A stretch of 64,000 bases of DNA from Bacteroidota bacterium (GTDB taxonomy: Bacteria; Bacteroidota; Bacteroidia; UKL13-3), in assembly GCA_027484685.1 (NCBI GenBank), contig JAIXSO010000020.1, forward strand, positions 62,001 through 126,000, given 5' to 3'. This document shows, piece by piece, positions 6,399 to 61,336 of this stretch. The position numbers and the translations under genes were made by a program. The notes below the pieces were generated by a model. That model was given only the letters and a program-made list of their open reading frames with translations, searched no databases and had not been told where the DNA came from. The first letter of the stretch is position 1. Each line of letters opens with the position of its first letter.

Positions 6399-7370
6399 TT
6401 AATTAATAATCATATTATTCTTAATAAACTGACTAGCAATTAATTCTGAATAATAGTTTCCGTTAATTTTATCAAACGCAAAACCTACATGCCCACCAAA
6501 TTGGGGTGTTTCTAAATGAAAATAAGGATGGTTTTTGGCTATACTATTTGGAAAACAAGTGGGAGCTAAAAATGGATCGTTTTGAGCATTAACTAAAAGG
6601 GTTGGAATTTTTATATTATCTAAAAATTGTAAAGAATTGCATTGTTGGTAATAATGTTGCGCATTTTCAAACCCGTGAATTTTTGCTGTAAATCGGGTAT
6701 CCCAATCATCAAAAGTGGTAATTTTTTCTAGCCCTTTTATGTTTATTTGGTTTGGAAACAAAATGGACTTTTCAATCAATTTACGGTTCAAACTGTTTAA
6801 AAACCTAGTCATATAAACTTTATTCCAAGTTTGGCTAAGCGTTTTAGAACTTGCAGCCAAATCAACAGGAACCGAAAATGCAAAGGCCGATTTAATTTTA
6901 TCGAGAATTTTATCGCCATTTTCGCCTAAATATTTTAGCAATACATTTCCTCCTAAACTAAAACCACCTAAAGCTATATTTTTATACAAATAATTACTTT
7001 CAATATAATTTATTATCAATTCTATATCATCACTTTTCCCGCTATGATAACTGGTAATTAAGCGATTATTTTCGCCACTACAACTTCTGAAATTTACTGC
7101 ACAAATGTCAAAATTTTGAGCACTAAAATAGTTGGCAAAACCTTTAATATATTGTGATTGTGAGCTTCCTTCTAAGCCATGAAACAAAATTAATAAGTTA
7201 TTGCTGTTATTTTGTATCCAATCAATATCCATAAAATCACCATCTGCAAGTTCCAATCTTTGGCGTTTGTAATGCACGTTCACTTTGCGAAATAAGGCAG
7301 GTAGAATAGTTTCTAAATGTTTGTTTTTTATCCATTTGTTTCCATTGAACGAACTTTTTATAATTGGCAT
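6399..7370 (-). CDS. YheT-family alpha/beta hydrolase
   Basis: 323 residues. The start MPIIKSSFNGNKWIKNKHLETILPALFR is the usual N-terminus of the YheT/ABHD1-3 group. The oxyanion-side motif is LLILFHGLEGSSQSQYIKGF; the nucleophile elbow is GGFSLGGNVLLKYLGE (GxSxG); the acid is in NAQNDPFLAP and the catalytic His in GGHVGF. These enzymes are esterase-like, with acyl-lipid activity shown for eukaryotic relatives; the bacterial substrate is unknown. There is no signal peptide, so it is cytoplasmic. Its stop directly abuts the lhgO stop. Confidence 0.85.
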   Translation of the reverse strand: MPIIKSSFNGNKWIKNKHLETILPALFRKVNVHYKRQRLELADGDFMDIDWIQNNSNNLLILFHGLEGSSQSQYIKGFANYFSAQNFDICAVNFRSCSGENNRLITSYHSGKSDDIELIINYIESNYLYKNIALGGFSLGGNVLLKYLGENGDKILDKIKSAFAFSVPVDLAASSKTLSQTWNKVYMTRFLNSLNRKLIEKSILFPNQINIKGLEKITTFDDWDTRFTAKIHGFENAQHYYQQCNSLQFLDNIKIPTLLVNAQNDPFLAPTCFPNSIAKNHPYFHLETPQFGGHVGFAFDKINGNYYSELIASQFIKNNMIIN

Positions 7371-8336: not shown

Positions 8337-9122
8337 ATGGATTTTAAGGTAAGAACATTAGCAGAAGTAGCAGCCAATGGAGAAGATGTAGATGTGCTTT
8401 TTTGGGTAGGCTGCGCAGGTAGTTTTGATGAACGTGCACAGAAAATTACCAAAGCTGTGGCTAAACTTTTACACCAAGCTAATGTTAAATTTGCTATACT
8501 AGGAACCGAAGAAGCATGTACTGGCGATCCTGCAAAGCGTGCTGGAAATGAGTTTTTGTTTCAAATGCTTGCCATGCAAAATATTACTACCATGAATGCC
8601 TATGGAGTAAAAAAAATAGTTACTGCTTGCCCTCATTGTTTCAATACTTTAAAGAACGAATATCCTCAATTAGGTGGCAGTTATGAGGTGGTGCATCATA
8701 CCGAGTTAATTAACGAACTTTTAGAAAAAGGAAAATTAAGTATTCAAGGTGGTGCTTTTAAGGGGAAACGAATTACTTACCACGATAGTTGCTACTTAGG
8801 CAGAGCCAATAATATTTACGAAGCACCACGCCAAGTTATTGAAAAATTGGATGCTGAGTTAGTAGAAATGAAACGTGCTAAAGCCAATGGTTTATGCTGC
8901 GGAGCTGGTGGAGCACAAATGTTTAAAGATGCTGAAACTGGCAAAAAGGAAGTGAATATAGAACGTGCTGATGATATGTTGGAATCAAAAGCCAATATTG
9001 TAGCTGCTGCTTGTCCGTTTTGTATGACCATGTTGCGCGATGGAATCAAACACAATAATAAAGAAGAAGAAGTTCAAGTGCTTGATGTAGCTGAATTAAT
9101 AGCTAACGCAATGGATTTATAG
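8337..9122 (+). CDS. CCG-domain (Fe-S)-binding oxidoreductase subunit
   Basis: 261 residues with two cysteine-rich CCG-type modules. The first has VGCAGSFDERAQK and ACPHCFNTLKNEYP; the second has DSCYLGRANNIY, GLCCGAGGAQMF and AACPFCMTML. This is the layout of heterodisulfide reductase subunit B, GlpC and LutA-like proteins, where the CCG cysteines bind an unusual [4Fe-4S] cluster or mediate thiol redox chemistry. In related genomes such a protein usually follows a larger ferredoxin-like partner, but here the upstream gene is a beta-barrel protein. The partner must be elsewhere or absent. The electron donor and substrate are unknown. Confidence 0.8.
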   Translation: MDFKVRTLAEVAANGEDVDVLFWVGCAGSFDERAQKITKAVAKLLHQANVKFAILGTEEACTGDPAKRAGNEFLFQMLAMQNITTMNAYGVKKIVTACPHCFNTLKNEYPQLGGSYEVVHHTELINELLEKGKLSIQGGAFKGKRITYHDSCYLGRANNIYEAPRQVIEKLDAELVEMKRAKANGLCCGAGGAQMFKDAETGKKEVNIERADDMLESKANIVAAACPFCMTMLRDGIKHNNKEEEVQVLDVAELIANAMDL

Positions 9123-9177: not shown

Positions 9178-9648
9178 TTGAAATTAAGTTACAACTTTCG
9201 GTATATTATTTTGCCTATTAAAATAAAGCCTAATTTGATTTGCTTATTGACCTTATTTTTTGTGTTGATAGCCAATTTAGGGAGGACACAAATTAATAAT
9301 AATAACTTTTCCTTTAAGGATATTTACGGAAATAATATAACGGTAGCAAACTATGATAAACTACCGGCTCCATTTGATACAACCTTTTTTAAATTAAACC
9401 TTACAGGACTATACTTCAATAAACAACTAACCGAAAAACCTATTCTATTTGATTATACTATTTCGGATTTAAAATGGACTAAAAAGAAAAATGAAGTTGA
9501 ATTTTCTTTGAGCATTATTCCTGATACTAAAGAAATTGAAGAGATTTTAAAGTATTTAGGAGGACCAAATCATTATAGCATGAAGGTATCAATAGAAGAA
9601 CATAAACTTCGAATTGATAAAATTAAATTTTTATACGGAGAAATATAA
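9178..9648 (+). CDS. Exported hypothetical protein
   Basis: 156 residues with a TTG start; no ATG lies near the N-terminus. A basic leader is followed by a hydrophobic segment (KPNLICLLTLFFVLIANLGRTQ) that looks like a signal peptide with a long N-region. The remainder is small and Lys/Asn/Ile-rich with no recognised motif. A codon error at the start is possible, but the signal-like segment supports a real exported product. Confidence 0.5.
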   Translation: MKLSYNFRYIILPIKIKPNLICLLTLFFVLIANLGRTQINNNNFSFKDIYGNNITVANYDKLPAPFDTTFFKLNLTGLYFNKQLTEKPILFDYTISDLKWTKKKNEVEFSLSIIPDTKEIEEILKYLGGPNHYSMKVSIEEHKLRIDKIKFLYGEI

Positions 9649-9706
9649 AAACCGATAGACGGATTAAGTTTTTTTTGAAACCGTTAAGTTTTCGAATCAA
9701 CTTTTA

Positions 9707-25196: not shown

Positions 25197-25253
25197 TAAC
25201 TTGTTTTCAGCTATAGATTGTATAGATTTATTAAAAACTCATTTTCTTTTTAG

Positions 25254-25700
25254 AATGGGTTGAAACCCATTTTAATTGATTTAATAGGCAAGTTGTTTTT
25301 AAGGGCTGAAGCCCATTTTTTTTGAAGATGATAAAATGTTTGTAAGAATTGGAATGGCATTTATGCCATTTTCTTTTTTTGAATGGGTTAAAACCCATTC
25401 CAATTGATTTATAAGGCAAAATATTTTTAAGGGCTGAAGCCCAATTTTTTTGAAGATGATAAAATGCTTGTATGAATTGGAATGGCATTTATGCCATTTT
25501 CTTTTTGGGTTAAAACCCATTCCAATTGATTTATAAGGCAATTTGGTATTTAAGGGCTTTAGCCCATTTTTTTGAGGATTATAAAATGTTTGGATGAACT
25601 GGAATTGCATTTATGCCATTTTCTTTTTTTGAATAGGTTAAAACCCATTTCAATTGATTTATAAGGCAATTTGGTATTTAAGGGCTAAAGCCCATTTTTT
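25254..25700 (+). repeat. REP-like palindrome array, block A (four units)
   Basis: Four units of ~125 bp, each ordered L (AATGGGTT-aa-AACCCATT), a spacer, C (AGGGCT-ga-AGCCC), a spacer, then R (AATGGCAT-tt-ATGCCATT) except in the last, which stops after C. L is followed by CCAATT and R is preceded by AATTGG, so L and R face each other as inverted REP-like hairpins. Small changes within the stems (one L is AATAGGTT) mark individual copies. No coding region is credible here. Confidence 0.92.
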
Positions 25701-25729
25701 GAGATTTTATATGTTTCTAACAAGTAAAG

Positions 25730-27250
25730 TTATTTTGCTATAATAATTTTATTACTGCTAAATTGCCCAGATTCAGTCAGAAAATGAATAAAATAAATTC
25801 CATTATTTATGTTTGATAAATCAAGTTCTAAATTATCAAACTTAGTATTATTTTCTAGGTTGTGAACCAATTTTCCTGTTGAACTATAAACACATAAAGT
25901 AGTTATGTTTTGTGTGTTTGATATTATGATTTTTCCTGAACTTGGATTTGGGTAAATAGTAGGTAAAGATAAAGCATGTTCAATAATATTATTAAATTGG
26001 GTTGGTGAATAAAACAGCGTGAATTTTTGAAAATCAAACCAATTTCCATCTTTGAAACTTTTTACAGTACCATTAGTAAGCATGTGTTTAAAACTAAAAT
26101 TATTCAACTCATAAACAACATTACTATCTGCGTAGTTGTAATTATATTGATAATCAGTTTTTGTCCATATATTCCATTGGTTAGTAATACTAAACCAGGT
26201 TGAAAAAGTACGCGATAATAAGTTTCCTAAACTGTCATTAGTTTTTTCTTCTTTTGTATGGTTAGTCCAGTCTTTTGTTGTTATATCCCAATTAAACCTT
26301 TGAGCTAAGTTTTGAAAGTTATTTAAATCATAACTATATGTGTTTTTATAATTTCCATCCCATTCATTGGTTAAGCTATTCCAACTATATGATGCTTCAA
26401 GTGTTTTGTTTCCATTTAAATCATAAATAAATTCGCTCTTATAATCTTCTTGCCATTTGTTTTTGGTAAAAGTTGAGGATGCAATTGTTTCAATCTTACC
26501 CCAATTATTATATTTATAAGCTGTTTTAAGTGCTGTATCCCAGTCAATTGGGCTTTTGGTAAAATATGCACTAAGAATTGTGTTCCCTGCACTATCATAT
26601 TTATATTCATTTTTGCTAACTAGTTCAAATGCCGTATCAATACCGTTATTTAAATAATGATAAGAAATAACGGGTTTGTTTAAATTATTTAGCTCATTTA
26701 TAACTTTGTTTCTTTGTTTAACTCCAAAGCTTTGTGTAATGGAGTCCCACTCAAAATAGGTTTTAAAAGTTTTATTACCATTTTTGTCAAAAATATATTC
26801 TGTTTTGTAAGCATTTATCCATTTGTTTGTGCTTTGGTTCCATTTTTGATACCCTTCATTTAATGTTTTATAACCGTTTTTGTCATAGGCTGATAATGTT
26901 TTAGTGTTATTTTGCCATTTGTTGAAAGAATCGTTCCATGATAGTGTTATATCAGATAGTTTGCGTCCTATTACATCATAGGTAAATATAGCTTTGCCAT
27001 CTGAAACATACCTGCTATTATCACTATCGTAATATTCATACAAAATGCTATCTAATCTTTGTTTAGTACTAATTTTACCAAGATTTGGGGTGTATTTTTC
27101 TTGTGGATTGGTTGTTGCTGTTTCACTATCAATAACACCTAACACGTTGCTATTTACATTTTTTACTTGGGCATTAACATGTATAATATTTAAAATAAAA
27201 ATGAACACGCTATATAAAAAGATACTTGTAAAGTTTATTAATTTGTTCAT
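25730..27250 (-). CDS. T9SS cargo protein with YD/RHS-like repeats
   Basis: 506 residues from the ATG at 27250 (MNKLINFTSIFLYSVFIFILNIIHVNAQ), a standard signal peptide; a Met 22 codons upstream would give an unlikely long leader. The middle is built from ~10 degenerate repeats of the form 'YDxxGNKTLxxxYxWNSxTNxWxxxxKxxYxY' (GNKTFKTYFEWDSITQSF, GNKTLEASYSWNSLTNEW, and others), likely a beta-rich extended surface structure. The C-terminus is a type A sorting domain (LPTIYPNPSSGKIIISN… NNGIYFIHFLTESG… KIIIAK). Function is unknown. It lies inside the repeat-rich region. Confidence 0.8.
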   Translation of the reverse strand: MNKLINFTSIFLYSVFIFILNIIHVNAQVKNVNSNVLGVIDSETATTNPQEKYTPNLGKISTKQRLDSILYEYYDSDNSRYVSDGKAIFTYDVIGRKLSDITLSWNDSFNKWQNNTKTLSAYDKNGYKTLNEGYQKWNQSTNKWINAYKTEYIFDKNGNKTFKTYFEWDSITQSFGVKQRNKVINELNNLNKPVISYHYLNNGIDTAFELVSKNEYKYDSAGNTILSAYFTKSPIDWDTALKTAYKYNNWGKIETIASSTFTKNKWQEDYKSEFIYDLNGNKTLEASYSWNSLTNEWDGNYKNTYSYDLNNFQNLAQRFNWDITTKDWTNHTKEEKTNDSLGNLLSRTFSTWFSITNQWNIWTKTDYQYNYNYADSNVVYELNNFSFKHMLTNGTVKSFKDGNWFDFQKFTLFYSPTQFNNIIEHALSLPTIYPNPSSGKIIISNTQNITTLCVYSSTGKLVHNLENNTKFDNLELDLSNINNGIYFIHFLTESGQFSSNKIIIAK

Positions 27251-27399
27251 TTTAAATATTGAAATTATAGGGTAAATGGAATTATAAAAATAACAACTTA
27301 TATTAAATAAGTACACATTTAAACAGTAAAACGAGTTTTAAGTACTTAAGGTTTGGTATTGTTTAAAATTAAATAGTTTAGGCTACCTTTTCTGTTTAC

Positions 27400-27469
27400 A
27401 ATGGGTTAAAACCCATTTCAATTGATTAAAAGGCAAAATGTATTTAAGGGCTAAAGCCCATTTTTTATG
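27400..27469 (+). repeat. REP-like palindrome unit, block B (single L-C)
   Basis: A single copy with L (AATGGGTT-aa-AACCCATT) and C (AGGGCT-aa-AGCCC) but no R hairpin. It shows that L-C is the smallest recurrent form in this region. Confidence 0.88.
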
Positions 27470-27500
27470 AGCACGAATCTTTAAATAACAGGTAAATTGA

Positions 27501-28412
27501 TTAGTAATCTAAAGCATTAACTTTTTTGCTGCTGTAAGTAGAGTCGGTTTTTATAAACTGATAATTTTGCCATTTAAACTTAACTTTAGCTTCTGAAGTG
27601 TTGGCAGTAGTATCGTCTTCGTTTCTTTCCCAATGGTAATAGTTTTTTAAAATATAATTGGGTTGACCAAGGGTATCTATTGGAAAAGTAATTTCATAAC
27701 CATCCGAAAAAACATCTGCATCGGCAACACCTCCATCTTCTATTTGTGTTTTTACTTTATAATTTTTAAGTAATAAATATTGGCTACCATTCCAATAACC
27801 ACAAGCATCAATTCCAGTTGTTATTCTTATAATATTATCTATACTATCCAAACCTTTGTTGTTAAATAATGCCATATCTAAATAACCAGTCATGGCAGCA
27901 TTAATGGTATCGCTTTCTATTGGATTATAACTATAACTGGAGCTTGGATTAAAGGCATAAAAGCCCACCATTTGAAAGTTTTTGAGTATTTTTAAGTTCA
28001 ATAAAAATAGGTTGTTAGCATATTTATCTACTAACAATAAATACCTCATATCTTTATGATTTAAATAATTAGTGGCTAAAAACTGACTAGGGACATAACC
28101 AATAAAACGCTTGCCATTAAACGGAAAACTAACTTTACACCAATTACCATATACTTTTTTTAAAACTACTTGTGTGTTTAATATTTCCAATACTTTTAAC
28201 GAGTCTTTAAATGATTTGGTTTTATATGATGTTTTTGATTTAATGCTTGGTGCGCTATAAACTGCTACTTCTTTGTAGGCCGGCAAATAATAATTTCCTA
28301 TTTCAGGCTTGCCAATATCTCCAATAGTGGTATAGGTTATAAGGCCTTTTTCACCATATTGAGCCGATGCATTCAATGAAATAAATAAGAAAAGGAATAG
28401 TAAAAATTTCAT
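27501..28412 (-). CDS. Exported SH3-like domain protein
   Basis: 303 residues with a signal peptide (MKFLLFLFLFISLNASAQ). A bacterial SH3-type segment covers about residues 45-115 (…VAVYSAPSIKSKTSYK… VKVLEILNTQVVLKKVYGNWCKVSFPFNGKRFIGYVPSQFL). The C-terminal part is of unknown fold. SH3-like domains commonly bind cell-wall peptides, so a periplasmic wall-associated role is a guess. Confidence 0.6.
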   Translation of the reverse strand: MKFLLFLFLFISLNASAQYGEKGLITYTTIGDIGKPEIGNYYLPAYKEVAVYSAPSIKSKTSYKTKSFKDSLKVLEILNTQVVLKKVYGNWCKVSFPFNGKRFIGYVPSQFLATNYLNHKDMRYLLLVDKYANNLFLLNLKILKNFQMVGFYAFNPSSSYSYNPIESDTINAAMTGYLDMALFNNKGLDSIDNIIRITTGIDACGYWNGSQYLLLKNYKVKTQIEDGGVADADVFSDGYEITFPIDTLGQPNYILKNYYHWERNEDDTTANTSEAKVKFKWQNYQFIKTDSTYSSKKVNALDY

Positions 28413-28447
28413 TTGGTAAAAATAGGGGATTGGACTTGTTTTTTTAG

Positions 28448-28693
28448 AATGGGTTAAAACCCATTCTAATTGATTTAAAAGGCAAATTGCTTTTTAAGGG
28501 CTAAAGCCCCAATTTTTTAGGATTATAAAATGTTTGGATGAATTGGAATGGCATTTATGCCATTTTCTTTTTAGAATGGGTTAAAACCCATTCCAATTAA
28601 AAATAATAGGTAAATTATATTTTTAAGGGCTGAAGCCCATTTTTGAGGATGATAAAATGTATGAATCAATTGGAATGGCATTTATGCCATTTT
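28448..28693 (+). repeat. REP-like palindrome array, block C (two L-C-R units)
   Basis: Two complete L-C-R units, ending 27 bases before the RAYT stop codon. L at 28448; R copies near 28550 and 28677. The block is the near flank of the transposase gene. Confidence 0.92.
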
Positions 28694-28720
28694 GAAAGGA
28701 AAGTAGATTTAATAAATTAG

Positions 28721-29158
28721 TTATTCTTCAAATTTTTGAAATCCATGTTTTAAAACAAATTCATCAAATTCTTGATTGAATGTATTGTTAAGGTGATGTT
28801 CTTCTTGGTTTTTAATATAATTTCTTACTGTTTCAATCATAGATTCAGAAACTGAAACTGCATAATATTCATCTTGCCATTCAAATTTCTGTTCTGTTAT
28901 TAAGTGTTTGTTTATCCAAAAGGATGATTCACCTTTAATCAATTGCATTATTTGCTGTATTGTTTGATTACTATTCATTGAAACTAAGCAATGACAATGG
29001 TCACTATATCCATTTACATAGTCAATAAAAATACCTTTTTTATGAGCATTTTCTTTAATGTGGTTCCATACTTTTTGTCTAATTTCTTTGCTATTTAATA
29101 GTGGAACTCTATTTTTAGTACTCCAAACAAAATGGATATAAACCTTAATAAATGGCAT
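28721..29158 (-). CDS. REP-associated tyrosine transposase (RAYT, Y1/HUH family)
   Basis: 145 residues, the usual length for this group. The N-terminus MPFIKVYIHFVWSTKNRVPLL is characteristic. The HUH metal site is DHCHCLVS (His-Cys-His) and the catalytic Tyr is likely in VRNYIKNQEEHH. The bracketing arrays make it a classic RAYT arrangement rather than a free IS200. No IS ends with duplicated targets are visible, so it is probably domesticated. On the minus strand the start codon lies in ATGCCATTT, identical to half of the R palindrome; this may be chance, since MPF is common in the family. Confidence 0.9.
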   Translation of the reverse strand: MPFIKVYIHFVWSTKNRVPLLNSKEIRQKVWNHIKENAHKKGIFIDYVNGYSDHCHCLVSMNSNQTIQQIMQLIKGESSFWINKHLITEQKFEWQDEYYAVSVSESMIETVRNYIKNQEEHHLNNTFNQEFDEFVLKHGFQKFEE

Positions 29159-29220
29159 AATAAGTTTACTGATGTTTTTTCAATTGCAATATATTTATTT
29201 TTTAAAATCTTTCTTTTTAG

Positions 29221-29436
29221 AATGGGTTAAAACCCATTCCAATTGAATGAAAAGGCAAAATGTTTTTAAGGGCTGAAGCCCGTTTTTGAAGATTATAAAA
29301 TGTATGAATCAATTGTATGTCAATTCCTTTTTACATGGGTTAAAACCCATTTCAATTGATTTATAAGGCAAATTGTTTTTTTAAGGGCTGAAGCCCAATT
29401 TTTTAGGATGATAAAATGTTTGAATCAATTATATTG
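29221..29436 (+). repeat. REP-like palindrome array, block D (two units)
   Basis: Two L-C units directly upstream of the RAYT gene start. In both, the R hairpin has decayed (caattgtatgtcaatt; caattatattgaaat). The remaining ~190 bases up to the next gene are featureless AT-rich sequence. Confidence 0.88.
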
Positions 29437-29622
29437 AAATAGCGCTACCTATTATAATTATTTATTATTGAATTGTTATTATTTTTCATAAAACCTAGTA
29501 AACTGAAATAAATTCATGTTATTGCGCTTATAGCTAAAATCAAAACAGCAAATGAATTCAAATAGTATTGGTAATAATTTTAGCATCTTTTTTAGTTTAA
29601 TTTTATTCGCAAATCAATATTG

Positions 29623-30645
29623 ATGGCAATGCTAGCAGGTCTTAGGTTTATTATAAATACATCTTTATTTAAAAATAATAAGATTGGAGAGGAGCATGAA
29701 TTATCACTTTCAAATGGTAAAATACCTGTACTTTTATATACACCATCCAAGAAAGAAAAAGGACTCATTATTTCTCTTACAGGATTTTCAATGCATGGCT
29801 ATCAAGATAAACGCATAGCCGTAGTAAATAATACCTTTGTAAAATTAGGATACCGTGTAATAACCCCCAAAATAGATACCATTGATGCCTTGCTCATTCA
29901 TCCATCAGGAATTGATGAAGTGAAAGAGGTTATTAATAAAATTACTGCTGATACATTATTGAACCCAAATAAGTTTAGGCCTGCTGTATTTGCACCTTCT
30001 TTTACTGCTGGCATAGCAGCTTTGGCCATTGCTGAAATGCCTGTAAACACTGTTTCTTCTTTTTGTTTGTTAGGTGGTTTTTGTGATTTTGAAACAACTA
30101 TTCAATTTGCTTTAACCAACGAAAAAAATGTAGATGATTATGGCATGCATGTTTTGATGAAAAACTTTTTGAAATATGAAGTGGGTAATAATCCTGCATT
30201 AGAAGCATTAATTCATACTGCCTTGGAAGATAATGGCTTGAAAAGACAAGTACCATTGCTGCCAAACCTACTTGCCCAAACAGATGCAGCTACTGTTGAA
30301 TTGTATAAGAAGCTTAGATTTAATACTGAATACAGAAGCGAAGTAATTATGCGGGCTTGGACAAAAATTCCTGATTTTGCTATTTGGAAAGATCGACTTG
30401 ATTTATCAAAACATGCGCATAAAATTAGTTGTCCAGTTACTATTATTCATGGAAAGGACGATAATGTAATTCCTTCTTCTGAATCTAAATTGTTATACTC
30501 ATTGTTGAAAAACAAAAACCCAAATATACATTTAGAAGTATCCAATTTACTGGACCATGGAGATATGAAAGTAGGGGTTAAAATTTTTAGTGAAGTTACC
30601 AACTTGGCTAAGGCTTTCAATTGTTTTATGGATTATATCAAATAA
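29623..30645 (+). CDS. Alpha/beta hydrolase-like protein
   Basis: 340 residues starting at the ATG at 29623. The oxyanion region is GLIISLTGFSMHGYQD; the nucleophile candidate is FAPSFTAGIAALA; the acid is in VTIIHGKDDNVIPSSES and the His in NLLDHGDMKVG, giving a complete catalytic triad in order. No signal peptide is evident. The substrate is unknown. It is the only non-repeat gene between blocks D and E, and its flanks are all REP sequence. Confidence 0.7.
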   Translation: MAMLAGLRFIINTSLFKNNKIGEEHELSLSNGKIPVLLYTPSKKEKGLIISLTGFSMHGYQDKRIAVVNNTFVKLGYRVITPKIDTIDALLIHPSGIDEVKEVINKITADTLLNPNKFRPAVFAPSFTAGIAALAIAEMPVNTVSSFCLLGGFCDFETTIQFALTNEKNVDDYGMHVLMKNFLKYEVGNNPALEALIHTALEDNGLKRQVPLLPNLLAQTDAATVELYKKLRFNTEYRSEVIMRAWTKIPDFAIWKDRLDLSKHAHKISCPVTIIHGKDDNVIPSSESKLLYSLLKNKNPNIHLEVSNLLDHGDMKVGVKIFSEVTNLAKAFNCFMDYIK

Positions 30646-30689
30646 AGTGAGCCACAGATTACACAGATTTCACTGATAATTATAAATAC

Positions 30690-30755
30690 AATTGGTTAAA
30701 ACCCATTTCAATTGATTAATAGGCAAATTATATTTTTAAGGGCTAAAGCCCATTG
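30690..30755 (+). repeat. REP-like palindrome unit, block E (single L-C)
   Basis: A slightly eroded single L-C copy (AATTGGTTAAAACCCATT and AGGGCTAAAGCCC) just after the hydrolase gene. Confidence 0.8.
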
Positions 30756-30891
30756 TCCGTCATTGCAGTTCTGCTCGAGCGGAGGAAGCTCAAGCGAACA
30801 TGCTTAAACTACTAGCTTCACAATAGCTATTGGCATTATTTTCCCGCAGATTTCGCAGATAGACGCAGAGGTTTCCGCATATTGCTTTCTG

Positions 30892-30918
30892 CAAACACTA
30901 GCGTCTCACTAGTGTTTG
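30892..30918. other. Hairpin CAAACACTAG / CTAGTGTTTG
   Basis: A 10-bp perfect stem with a 7-base loop (CGTCTCA). It lies in a 200-base stretch between blocks E and F with no gene and with a 'cagatttcgcagatagacgcagag' fragment. Unlike the L, C and R palindromes it has no nearby copies; it may belong to another dispersed family. Confidence 0.7.
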
Positions 30919-30962
30919 TATTCCTTTGCCTCTAGCAATTGTAACCAATGCTTTCTTTTTGC

Positions 30963-31280
30963 AATGGGTTAAAATCCATTCCAATTGATTTAAAAGGCAA
31001 TTTGTTTTTAAGGGCTAAAGTCCTTTTGTTTAAAGATTATAAAATGTTTAGATGAATTGGAATGGCAATTATGCCATTTTCTTTTTATAATGGGTTAAAA
31101 CCCATTTCAATTGATTTAAATGGCAAATTGTTTTTTTAAGGGCTAAAGCCCAATGTTTGAGAGTGATAAAATGTTTGAATCAATTGGAATGGCATTTATG
31201 CCATTTTTATTTTACAATGGGTTAAAACCCATTCCAATTGATTTAAAAGGCATTTTGTTTTTAAGGGCTGAAGCCCAATT
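30963..31280 (+). repeat. REP-like palindrome array, block F (three units)
   Basis: L-C-R, L-C-R, L-C. Stem changes mark the first unit (AATCCATT; AGTCC; AATGGCAATT). The block ends ~60 bases before the terminator of the three-Cys cassette. Confidence 0.92.
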
Positions 31281-33190: not shown

Positions 33191-33994
33191 TTAATTATTA
33201 TTTGCTTTAAAAGGTTCAAGAAATGAATATCCTACTGAAAATGATAGCCATGGTTTTGCATTATAATCCCATTTAGGTTCAACATCTGAAAAGTCCCATC
33301 CGAATGCTAAACCCATTTGTACTTTTCCAACATTGAAAACTAAAGCTGGTACTAAACTAAACCCGGCAATATTTTGCTTTGTTGTTTTTGTATTATCATT
33401 TTTATCAATTATCGTTCTGTTAAAAGTTGTAATACCTCCTCCAATGTTTAAAGAAAGGCCATAGTCAAAGAGTCTATTATTATATATTTTAAATCCAATA
33501 GAGGTACCAATAGTTCCATCTGTTGTAAATTCGTTTATTCCATTTTCTCCAAACCTATACTTAAATGGAACGGATAAAACTGAAACACTTACTCTTGATA
33601 TTGAATATTCAACATTGAAAATTTCGTTAATTTTTCCAGCATCAATATTTTCAGCTGGTATCCAAAATGACATTCCAAATTCGTCATTTCCAATAATTTT
33701 CAAAGAAACAGGTGCTAAGTTTGCATTATTATTACTATTTGATTTTTTACCAGGAATGTTAATAAGGTAATATTTCTTATTGTTTGATACAATTGAAACA
33801 TCTTTAACTATATTGAAATAAACGTTATTGTTTAGTGTATAATTTATGCCTAATGTCGTTACATCTGTGGCAAGATTAACCACAATGCTAGATGAAGCAT
33901 CTTTTAGTCGATACCCAATTTTAATTCTATCTTGTCCATATGACAAACAGTTTAATAATAAAATAATTAATGTTGAAAGTGCTATTTTTTTCAT
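33191..33994 (-). CDS. Exported, probable outer-membrane protein
   Basis: 267 residues. A signal peptide (MKKIALSTLIILLLNCLSYGQ) precedes beta-rich alternating sequence (…YFNIVKDVSIVSNNKKYYLI…, GTSIGFKIYNNRLFDYGLSLNIGGGIT…, AFGWDFSD… PWLSFSVGYSF), ending in an aromatic-rich strand near the C-terminus. It looks like a small barrel or periplasmic beta-protein. It diverges from the signalling operon at 34290, with the shared 18-bp sites between them. No function is assigned. Confidence 0.6.
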   Translation of the reverse strand: MKKIALSTLIILLLNCLSYGQDRIKIGYRLKDASSSIVVNLATDVTTLGINYTLNNNVYFNIVKDVSIVSNNKKYYLINIPGKKSNSNNNANLAPVSLKIIGNDEFGMSFWIPAENIDAGKINEIFNVEYSISRVSVSVLSVPFKYRFGENGINEFTTDGTIGTSIGFKIYNNRLFDYGLSLNIGGGITTFNRTIIDKNDNTKTTKQNIAGFSLVPALVFNVGKVQMGLAFGWDFSDVEPKWDYNAKPWLSFSVGYSFLEPFKANNN

Positions 33995-34126
33995 AATTTT
34001 TTTCTTGCCTACTCTTTACAGGATTTTCGGCTTAACTCCTTTTGGTCTTTATTGTATTATTTGGTAAAACGTTTTTATCATTTTGTTTTACCGCTACAAA
34101 CATTTACAAAAAAAATAGGAGATACC

Positions 34127-54293: not shown

Positions 54294-57200
54294 ATGTATA
54301 TTCATAAGCCATATCATCATGCTTTTAAATATAATTTAGTATTACATTTTATCCTGCTTTCTACTGTACTTTTTTCTCAAAATAAATTTGTAGTAAAACA
54401 TTATACGCAAAAAAATGGGTTGCCTCAAAATAGTGTTAACCAAGTTTATTTTGATAAGAACAATTTTTTATGGCTAGCCACTGAAGCAGGTTTGGTTCGT
54501 TTTGATGGTGTTAACTTCAAAGTATTTAATACTCAAAACTCCATAGTTGAAAACGAACGATTTAGGTGGATTTTTCCTACTTATGATAAACAAGTTATAG
54601 CTTCAGATGCTGGAGGAAATTTACTTAAAATTGAAAATAACTTACTCCAAAAAGTTCATAGGGCAAATTCATTTACCAATCTTATTAATTTAAATTGTGG
54701 CTTACCAACTTTAAGTAATTTTTTAAAATTTAAACAATTGCTTACTGATGCCACTCCAAATATCAATTTTTATCCATTTAAGTTTATCCCTCATAACGAT
54801 TCTATTTCGTTTATTTTAGGAAAAAAATATATTTATAAATACCATAATGCCTTATTGGTTGATAGTATTTTAACGGCTACTAAATATTGCAATTATTTTT
54901 TTAAAGTAGGTGCCCACTATTATTTGGCTAATAATGAGGGCACTTTTTTTTATGTTAATATTAAAAATAAAAGTTTGGAGCCTTGCAGTGTAGATGGAAT
55001 TACCAGTTCAAAAAACACTTTTATTACCATAATTTATAAAGCCCAGGCATATAAAACCTACTTGGTTCAAGAAAATAATATAGGCACTTTAGAAGCAGTT
55101 GGAAACAATCCGAACCATTTGAAACTAAGTTTAGTTTCCAACCAAATTCCCGAAAATTTTAAAATAGTTGATATAGAATACAATAAAGCTTTAGATGTAT
55201 ATGCTATTGGTTCTACCACCAATGGTTTATGTATATTTAAACCCCATTTATTTAAAGTTCAGTACGAGGTAAATACTACCAAATCAGGAGCTAATGCCAT
55301 TTATGCAATCGATAAAATAAACGATAGCACTGTTTTCTCAACCATTCAAACTAGTTTTAGCAGCAATCAAGTTACACCTTATATAGTTTATAGAAGTGTT
55401 ATTAATTTTGAAGCTGTTTTTAACGATAACCAACACAGATTGTGGTTTGCTAAAAACGATAGCTTATTTTATTTTGATAAAATTATTAAAGCAAAAGTAT
55501 ACGTAAAAAAATATGCTCAAGTAATAACTTGTATAAATATAAGTTGCGATAGTATTTGGGTTGGCCAGCCCAATCATTTATCATTAATTATTTATAAAAA
55601 CCAAAAAATTGTTTACCAAAAAGAAGTAAATAAAATTACATCTCGTATCGTATCTATTTGTATTTCGCCTAATAACGAGGTATATTTCTCAAATGCTGAA
55701 GGTGTTTATAGGGTAATGATTTCTGATGAAGATACTTATATTGTTAAGTTAATTCATGGAACTAATTTTAGGGATGTTTATTATTACAAAAACATAATAT
55801 TTGCTACTAGCTATGGAAGTGGTTGGTATGCATTTTATAAAAATAAAGCGTACAAGTTACCTTTAGATAGAAACCATTATTTGGCTAAATGCCATAGTAT
55901 TCAAATAGATAGTAATCAAAATGTATGGCTAAGTAGCAACAATGGTTTATTTGAAACATCGTTTAAACAGGTTTTAAATTATATAGCCGATACTTCCAAA
56001 TCTGTAACATTTAATTATTACAATGAAGAAAATGGAATTGATAATTCTGAATTTAATGGAGGTTGCTATCCTGCAAGTGTTCAATTAAAAAATGGAACAA
56101 TGGCATTTCCTTCTATGAGTGGTTTGGTTAGTTTTAATCCTTATTTGTTTAAAAAACGAGCCAATTCAAGTCAAATATTTATTGATAAAACTGAAGTTAA
56201 TAATTTACCAATTAATGCTTTGAAAAGTATTGAAATTGAGCCTAATACAGAATTATTAAATATTTATTTTACATCTCCTTATTGGTATAACGATTACGAG
56301 GTAAATTACCAATACCAGTTAATTGGTTATAACTCAAAACCTATAAGTATTACTGGTGAAAATAAAGTGAGTTTTACCAATTTAAATGCAGGAAAGTATG
56401 TGTTAATTATAAAAAAAATAACAGGTAAAGATGGCGCTGAAGGCATGTTAACTTTAAATATAAAGGTTCATAAAAAATATTATCAAACATGGTGGTTTAT
56501 AGCACTTCTTCTTGGTTTAATATTTACTTTATTGGCACTTTCTGTAAAATATTATAACAGTATTTTGGTAATGCGAAATGCTGATTTAGAACAAAAAGTA
56601 AATGCGAGAACTTTTGAGTTAGCTCAATTAAATAGTAGTTTAAAAGAAACCAACGAACAATTATTATTATCGGAGCAGCAAAATTTACGTTCACTTAATT
56701 TAAAAAGTAAACTTATTGCCATTCTCTCGCACGATATCATTACTCCTTTAAAGTTTATTTCTATGGTGGCTCGCAATAGCAAAAAAATGAACGAAGGAGA
56801 TGATTTTAAAAGTATTTTGAACGATATTGATCACACTTCGAGGCGATTATACGAAAATGCACAAAATATTTTGAATTGGATTAAGTACCAAAGTACTTTA
56901 ATTAATGTTCAAAAAACCAACGTGCCTCTATTTGTTTTGGTAGACGAAATTGGTGAGCTATTAAAAGAAGTAATGGATAGTAAAAACAATGTTTTGGTAA
57001 ATAGCATTGACCCTGACCAAATTATTTACACCGATAAAAATATTTTATCAATTGTAATTCACAACTTGGTTTCAAATGCTACTAAATACAATTCCAAAGC
57101 CACTATTGAGGTAACTGCAGAAATAAAAAACGATTGCCATTACATTATCATTTCCGACAATGGAAAAGGAATGAGTACTCAAAACTTGGATAGAATTAAC

Positions 57201-61279: not shown

Positions 61280-61336
61280 CTAACGTTGGGGCAGACCTTC
61301 GTGTCCGCCCGAAAAAGGGATAAAACCCAAAAATAA

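Follow-up and report, generated by a model that had tools for sequence, protein, structure and literature searches.

Repeat region and transposase gene

The DNA analysed was a stretch of 64,000 nucleotides from a Bacteroidota bacterium (GenBank assembly GCA_027484685.1, contig JAIXSO010000020.1, positions 62,001 to 126,000 of the forward strand), referred to below as the window. At window positions 25254-31280, arrays of short palindromes termed L, C and R surround one Y1 transposase gene, here called tnpA. The composition given in an earlier note, made from the sequence alone, was confirmed with 13 L hairpins, 13 C palindromes and 7 R hairpins. Five of the R hairpins are exact and two, near 25603 and 31062, carry substitutions; two degenerate R remnants, near 29311 and 29427, were read by eye from the sequence. 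The six clusters hold 4, 1, 2, 2, 1 and 3 L-C units, all in a single orientation, and neighbouring tandem units follow each other with a period of 113-128 bp. L and R consist of an 8-bp stem with a four-nucleotide loop, next to which lies a seven-nucleotide tag. The features are as follows.

28666-29246, minus strand: proposed tag-to-tag unit of 581 bp (tag, R hairpin, tnpA, L hairpin, tag), delimited by the same rule as the 570/573-bp units of the sister genomes G043/G042
28721-29158, minus strand: tnpA, 145-aa HUH Y1 transposase, subclass 1.2 by motif (motifs, profiles)
28666-28672, minus strand: tag CAATTGA, left unit end (sequence read, tag profile)
28673-28692, minus strand: R hairpin AAATGGCA-TAAA-TGCCATTC, 28 nt beyond the stop codon (hairpin search)
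29220-29239, plus strand: L hairpin GAATGGGT-TAAA-ACCCATTC, 61 nt upstream of the start codon (hairpin search)
29240-29246, plus strand: tag CAATTGA, right unit end (sequence read, tag profile)
25253-25698, plus strand: array 1, four L-C units, three with R
27399-27465, plus strand: array 2, one L-C unit without R
28447-28692, plus strand: array 3, two L-C-R units adjoining the tnpA stop codon
29220-29434, plus strand: array 4, two L-C units and the degenerate R remnants, upstream of tnpA
30689-30756, plus strand: array 5, one L-C unit without R
30962-31280, plus strand: array 6, three L-C units, two with R

Tagged hairpins were defined explicitly in the window by an 8-bp stem with at least 7 of 8 pairs, a TRAA loop and at least 4 of 7 tag positions. 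This definition returned 14 hairpins, all inside the region, compared with a mean of 0.25 and a maximum of 1 in 20 mononucleotide shuffles; relaxing the stem to 6 pairs added three weak tagged hairpins elsewhere in the window. When up to 3 mismatches were allowed, no further L was found in the window outside the region, one R-like site lay at 55293 (3 mismatches), and C-like sites lay at 61315 (2-3 mismatches) and 44521 (3 mismatches). The AATTGG/CCAATT flanks, described in the earlier note as pointing outward, do so in the gene-containing R-to-L pair, but point inward within the L-C-R unit. A scan against Rfam at gathering scores matched no family to the arrays. Elsewhere in the window, a DUF805b RNA scoring 41.1 bits was recognised at 34006-34041 of the minus strand; the gene at 33191-33994 follows directly downstream of it.

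The transposase

The window gene matched the domain Y1_Tnp (PF01797) with an E-value of 1.2e-28 and was the sole such gene within the region. The earlier note had labelled it as a transposase associated with repetitive extragenic palindromic (REP) sequences, a RAYT, and this label did not agree with the protein sequence. The product scored 32.7 bits against the NCBIfam model REP_Tyr_transpos (cut-off 80) and passed the NCBIfam IS200 model with 70.3 bits (cut-off 55). Beside the catalytic tyrosine, a YxxxQ motif (YIKNQEEHH) replaces the NP(L/V)(R/K)xG motif that is the RAYT signature (PMC2817692; this and the other publications are cited from those sections of their text that were available). 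Residues H54, H56, Y114 and Q118 were invariant in all 47 aligned homologues; the alignment was made from 53 sequences, leaving out L226 (stop codon), L222, L090, L103, L105 and L042. The AlphaFold single-chain model (mean pLDDT 91.5) gave fold matches to ISDra2 (3.4e-9), IS608 (1.3e-8) and the E. coli RAYT 4er8 (1.3e-5), so that the predicted fold is closer to TnpA of ISDra2 and IS608 than to the E. coli RAYT.

TnpA was assigned to subclass 1.2 of the TnpA-Y1 proteins by motifs and length against the published table, in which this subclass has DH[IV]H, WQ, YIKNQKEHH and a median of 148 aa and occurs in Cyanobacteria and Bacteroidetes (Quentin et al. 2018, PMC6006769). With DHCH, WQ, YIKNQEEHH and 145 aa, the window protein follows the tabulated pattern except for C in place of I/V. 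In the available sections of the same study, subclass 1.2 is tabulated with REP "no" and as generally devoid of typical IS200 end structures. The automatic REP prediction used there was based on rules from described REPs, all GTAG or GTGG; since these rules need GTAG or GTGG, REPs with a different tag would be missed. Among the window tnpA and its two nearest orthologues, dN/dS values of 0.05-0.20 indicate that the protein is kept by purifying selection.

Hairpin, tag and second box at homologous loci

The surroundings of tnpA were compared at 79 loci, taken from the best 80 of 203 related stretches (64-97% identity), which represent the closest homologues and not a sample of the whole subclass 1.2. 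Their titles name Bacteroidota, with the exception of one Leptospiraceae bin. Sequence within 1 kb of tnpA was counted as near (150.8 kb) and sequence at least 4 kb away as far (481 kb). Perfect hairpins with a 4-nt loop numbered 197 near tnpA versus 34 in the three times as much far sequence, and 188 of the 197 had a TAAA, TTTA, TTCA or TGAA loop, versus 4 of the 34. The loop was found without preselection; the tag profile was built only from hairpins with these four loops. When the hairpins were aligned by the loop, the tag CWATTSA followed directly after the stem (C 0.85, W, A 0.95, T 0.96, T 0.92, S, A 0.97). A combined rule (stem with at least 7 of 8 pairs, TRAA/TTYA loop, at least 5 of 7 tag positions) recovered 254 tagged hairpins near and 9 far, and such hairpins were present within 1 kb in 76 of the 79 loci. 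At 15 hold-out loci that were unused for tag discovery (49-69% identity), 36 were found near and none far (14/15 loci).

The hairpins are mostly oriented with the tag away from the gene. For the first hairpin at most 80 nt past the stop codon, this was so at 48 of 54 loci, with the opposite orientation at 6; the distance from the stop codon had a median of 38.5 nt (interquartile range 34-40). Measured from the match end instead of the stop codon, the tag pointed away in 49 of 55 loci. Within 80 nt upstream of the start codon, the corresponding counts were 21 of 24 and 3, with a median distance of 56 nt. Of 58 hairpin pairs with tags inward, 55 consisted of two different stems.

A second element, the box GGCTRAAGCC, mostly after TTT or TTG (profile: 270 copies, 71 loci), occurs outside the tagged hairpins, with 273 copies near and 5 far at 71 of the 79 loci, and with 30 near and none far at 13 of the 15 hold-out loci. 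Its spacing is narrow: a box before a hairpin lies at a median of 23 nt (93 adjacent pairs, interquartile range 22-25) and a mirrored box at a median of 22 nt (69 adjacent pairs, interquartile range 21-23). Downstream of the gene, the first box follows the stop codon at a median of 6 nt and has one orientation in 54 of 55 loci.

Distance between TnpA proteins and mismatch between stems were modestly linked (Mantel 0.295; 7/2000 permutations, 54 loci), which may reflect shared ancestry. The rows of the hairpin alignment A2 (101 of 108 selected stretches) were picked for perfect pairing, so most of the pair covariation seen in it follows from that selection. One of the far-repeat counts is raised by CRISPR-like arrays in part of the far flanks; such arrays (TTGTGAATTGCTTTC..., 32-76 copies of a 12-mer) occur in the stretches surrounding tnpA in several Flavobacterium genomes (L163, L171, L186, L197, L205), possibly by shared synteny. 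At L102 8425-8980 (genome G001), one tagged hairpin is repeated eight times in tandem, with a period of 46-47 nt, downstream of a tnpA with 49% identity.

Tag-to-tag units in sister species

The tnpA of G042 is 96-97% identical to the copies in G043 and G038, but is located at another place. By BLAST limits, the stretch shared by G042 and G043 measures 573 bp and 570 bp, respectively, is 91% identical and contains tnpA; within 150 bp beyond either end, no significant similarity was found. It begins with CCAATTG and finishes with CAATTG plus three bases, and since its limits carry CAATTG, the tags are placed at the unit ends.

The G043 site (site A) is also occupied in G038 and contains a unit without the gene, i.e. 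an internally deleted one, in G042. It is near-empty, with 13-27 bp between the flanking matches, in G039, G000 (the genome of the window), G044, G036, G037 and G040. At the G042 site (site B), a truncated remnant was found in G038, and the left flank with one tagged hairpin in G039; in G043, G040, G044, G036, G000 and G037 unrelated sequence comes after the left flank. Two other repeats were seen at these loci: a dispersed repeat of about 120 bp with at least 31 matches across the genus, located in the G043 tnpA flank (L098 ~9570-9700), and a 35-50-bp repeat on both strands in several congeners (L100 ~6960-7170 and 8940-8990).

Occurrence in the window genome and in related genomes

Copies of the window-type unit were counted with a model of the unit; in a first model of this kind, the RNAalifold structure took in L and C only. 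All whole-genome model counts are lower bounds, with 52 candidates scored per genome for the unit and 104 for the generic hairpin plus tag. In the 4.5-Mb window genome itself, where 150 of 11147 candidates were scored, at least 22 matches were obtained. Fifteen fall at the locus, two of these being units already counted but matched on the opposite strand; the remaining 7 are weaker and spread over four further contigs. On the candidates scored here, a dispersed high-copy REP family of the window type was rejected. Among 64 family genomes, G000 gave 20 matches, G036 9, G044 8 and G040 one partial match. TnpA is identical to the window protein by 100% in G000, 95% in G036 and 97% in G044. The window-type repeats thus follow their TnpA, a link that the earlier note had proposed to check: among the candidates scored, several strong matches were obtained only in the 3 of 64 genomes with at least 95% TnpA identity, nearly all at the locus. 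This is not independent evidence, because the three genomes are close and syntenic.

The tnpA locus is syntenic in G000, G036 and G044, with differing unit numbers. The gene p303 lies between arrays in the window (27501-28412), and upstream, beside its own L-C-R units, in G044 (L086 2867-3772). Since p303 stands beside L-C-R units at differing places, the repeats may have taken part in its relocation. The orthologue of the neighbouring hydrolase gene is found in other congeners without tnpA; its left neighbours differ there too, and therefore no clean empty site is available at this place. Two dispersed clusters of the window genome were also searched, and no clean empty junction was found.

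With the generic hairpin-plus-tag model, one or more matches were obtained in each of the 16 family genomes whose TnpA reaches 49% identity. Repeats without such a transposase, which according to the earlier note would speak against the association, were found in part: the generic hairpin occurred in 12 of the 48 genomes lacking a TnpA at or above that threshold, one of which (G034) has a TnpA fragment with 60% identity. The association of generic hairpin and TnpA gave a Fisher p of 6e-8, a value that is too small because the genomes are related. Counts per genome ranged from 1 to 30, the window genome having at least 30 matches (104 of 3407 candidates scored). In G062 (C1:1046838-1047794), two adjacent Y1 genes are divergent, one of them subclass-1.2-like and 36% identical to the window protein; for the second gene, G062 has two further sites that match with the same score.

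The window genome contains 15 Y1_Tnp matches, the nearest one 53% identical to the window gene. By motif, nine are of subclass 1.2, three are of the NP class-2 type (L010, L012, L013), one is of another type (L011) and two are fragments (L014, L015). Private repeats around these genes were screened as 12-mers with at least 4 copies per stretch. Such 12-mers hug the window gene, three further subclass-1.2 genes (in L041, L044, L045), the class-2-type genes L010 (L046) and L013 (L049) and the fragment in L051, and each of these has its own palindrome. At 8 of the 15 (L039, L040, L042, L043, L047, L048, L050 and the second gene of L046) they were absent at that threshold. The palindromes beside the class-2-type genes (L046 6058-7977, L049 7554-8506) and the contig-end fragment (L051 7931-8005) include GCAAGCGTCCGCTTGC and CACTCGCTCGCATCTTGCGAGTG; atypical palindromes have been reported for subclass 2.6. 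A dispersed family of CCACGACC hairpins is present in the window genome on contigs without a Y1 match, and the CCACGACC stem also adjoins tnpA in G043 and G030. The dispersed copies may be remnants, or may have moved in trans.

Interpretation and alternative explanations

The locus is quite probably a small IS200-like mobile element, or a recently domesticated one, with inverted tagged hairpins as ends, the gene-less ends of which accumulate as local REP-like arrays. The repeats would then probably be the ends and leftovers of the element. A class 1 (subclass 1.2) Y1 gene would be framed by two inverted hairpins, each with a variable 8-bp stem, a constant TAAA/TGAA loop (TTTA/TTCA on the other strand) and CWATTSA outside the stem as the unit end. 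TnpA would recognise the folded single strand and cut at or near the tag, after which tag-to-tag units could be excised, inserted or internally deleted. Gene-less end pieces would pile up as REP-like arrays, mostly beside the gene. Resident tags may serve as insertion targets, from which clustering would follow; tandem duplication accounts for the regular 113-128 bp arrays at least as well. At the level of sequence, this explanation builds on the association of tnpA with hairpins of constant loop and tag, their mostly inverted framing, the unit at two unrelated places, the occupied and near-empty sites, and purifying selection.

A number of observations weigh against this explanation. A gene between two inverted palindromes is found in the window, where L and R flank tnpA, but a tagged hairpin within 80 nt on both gene sides was present in only 14 of the 79 loci. 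In the sister species, the copy in G043 has a degenerate hairpin downstream of the gene, and the one in G038 has none upstream; the insertion at site A, with about 900 bp, exceeds the 570-bp unit, and no congener was found with both flanks of site B joined. Simple inheritance would also account for the window tnpA, given its single copy and its synteny in three species. G005 has at least 23 tagged hairpins but no TnpA of at least 49% identity; the 12 kb around its nearest TnpA, of 39% identity, contain no tagged hairpin. At 24 distant subclass-1.2 loci (28-44% identity), the tagged hairpin occurred in 2 only, and the rule therefore belongs to one clade. TRAA hairpins with any tag were present in 8 of these loci (32 near, 2 far), and the tag seems to change beyond that clade. 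In the clade of the window, the C palindrome is located on the tag side of the hairpin, 31-37 nt off, unlike the usual place of the box, so that the three-palindrome L-C-R unit is to be regarded as a local variant and not as the general form. Binding, cleavage position, the single-strand route and the targeting of resident tags, finally, are steps that we infer from sequence.

The strongest alternative, which is somewhat doubtful, is a domesticated REP system in which a vertically kept TnpA spreads hairpins while the gene itself is immobile, as in the RAYT model with another transposase. The synteny of the window tnpA in three species and its purifying selection agree with it, as do the lack of near-identical tnpA copies among the 15 Y1 matches of the genome (nearest 53%) and the alike flanks among L044/L092/L095 and L098/L101. 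Against it stands the occurrence of tnpA within tag-to-tag units at unrelated locations in two sister species. For the window copy the two explanations overlap, and their likelihoods are not exclusive.

It is unlikely that tandem duplication and homologous recombination alone built the arrays with the transposase as a bystander; this would leave unexplained why one loop, one tag and a mostly inverted framing are found around tnpA at 76 of 79 loci, spread over many genera. Duplication probably explains array length. In favour of this alternative, the units have one orientation and the 113-128 bp tandem period, their number varies at the orthologous site, and p303 lies elsewhere in G044 beside its own units. 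Comparison of the units also showed a slight overall excess of similarity within species (a value reached in 28 of 2000 permutations), which was strong in G036 (0.925) but absent in G044 (0.783 within versus 0.794-0.828 to others). Still less probable is that the hairpins terminate transcription of tnpA or act as RNA elements in its transcript. The narrow spacing past the stop codon (medians of 6 nt for the box and 38.5 nt for the hairpin) and the T run that the C palindrome precedes in the window would suit a terminator. The tagged hairpin is followed by CWATTSA and no T run, however, its T-rich side lies 5' of the stem, and the same hairpin stands in mirror image upstream of genes. Termination as the main function was rejected for the missing T run. 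An RNA family was rejected as well, as no Rfam family matched the arrays and the DUF805b RNA was the sole gathering-score match in the window.

For the small mobile element preferred here, a broader proposition has about an even chance of being correct, namely that Bacteroidota harbour a second, independent REP-like world. In it, a class 1 Y1 lineage would drive its own tagged palindromes (8-bp stem, TRAA/TTYA loop, CAATT tag) and the GGCTRAAGCC box, stand between a mobile insertion sequence and a domesticated REP maker, and land its copies at resident tags, so that arrays would grow around the source gene. The lineage pairs an enzyme from the IS200 side with REP-like DNA partners and bears on how REP-making domesticated transposases arose from IS200 elements. 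Since occupied, internally deleted and near-empty units exist in one genus, the transition from a mobile element to a family of repeats is accessible to direct study. The sequence rule of loop, tag, box and spacing can be used to annotate palindromic repeats in Bacteroidota, and it supplies well-defined single-stranded oligonucleotides for enzyme tests.

Comparison with known systems

The match to REP/RAYT systems proposed in the earlier note stands for a REP/transposase-like association, which is general for one clade; it does not extend to RAYT identity, the enzyme being from the IS200 side. The REP/RAYT systems of E. coli, Stenotrophomonas and Haemophilus share with the present loci a Y1 gene framed by inverted palindromes, as described for RAYT genes and REPs (PMC2817692), a tag at the foot of the hairpin, and private palindromes for each transposase. 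Read on the other strand, 5'-TSAATWG-hairpin(TTYA) is the known REP layout with a different tag, and some GTAG REPs carry TTYA loops as well, namely in H. influenzae and Thioalkalivibrio (PMC2817692). The shared layout and the inverted framing suggest that the loci work like a REP/RAYT system with an enzyme from the other side of the family. They differ in having TSAATWG for GTAG/GTGG, a class 1 subclass 1.2 enzyme, the extra GGCTRAAGCC box, few and mostly local copies, and different stems in 55 of 58 pairs with tags inward. REP palindromes usually number more than 100 per genome (PMC2817692); the counts in the window genome, 22 with the unit model and 30 with the generic model, are lower bounds below that number.

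The enzyme agrees with subclass 1.2 as given in the available sections of PMC6006769 in motifs, length and occurrence in Bacteroidetes. Unlike the REP "no" of 2018, tagged hairpins were found within 1 kb at 76 of 79 loci of one clade. REP/TnpA pairs in Bacteroidetes were previously reported for subclasses 2.4 and 2.6 (PMC6006769). No report of a REP-like system for subclass 1.2 was found in the literature searched, most subscription papers and ISfinder being outside that search. With IS200/IS605 elements such as IS608 and ISDra2, the loci share the transposase fold, HUH and YxxxQ, and hairpin ends. The ends are here mostly inverted hairpins with the tags outermost, whereas IS200/IS605 members are described in the available sections of PMC2817692 as lacking terminal inverted repeats. 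REPINs, as far as they are described in the sections of PMC3116915 that were available, are similar in that inverted hairpin doublets form probable non-autonomous units and tandem clusters stand beside a transposase gene. They differ from the present loci, where a pair mostly consists of two different stems, the copy number is low and the transposase belongs to class 1.

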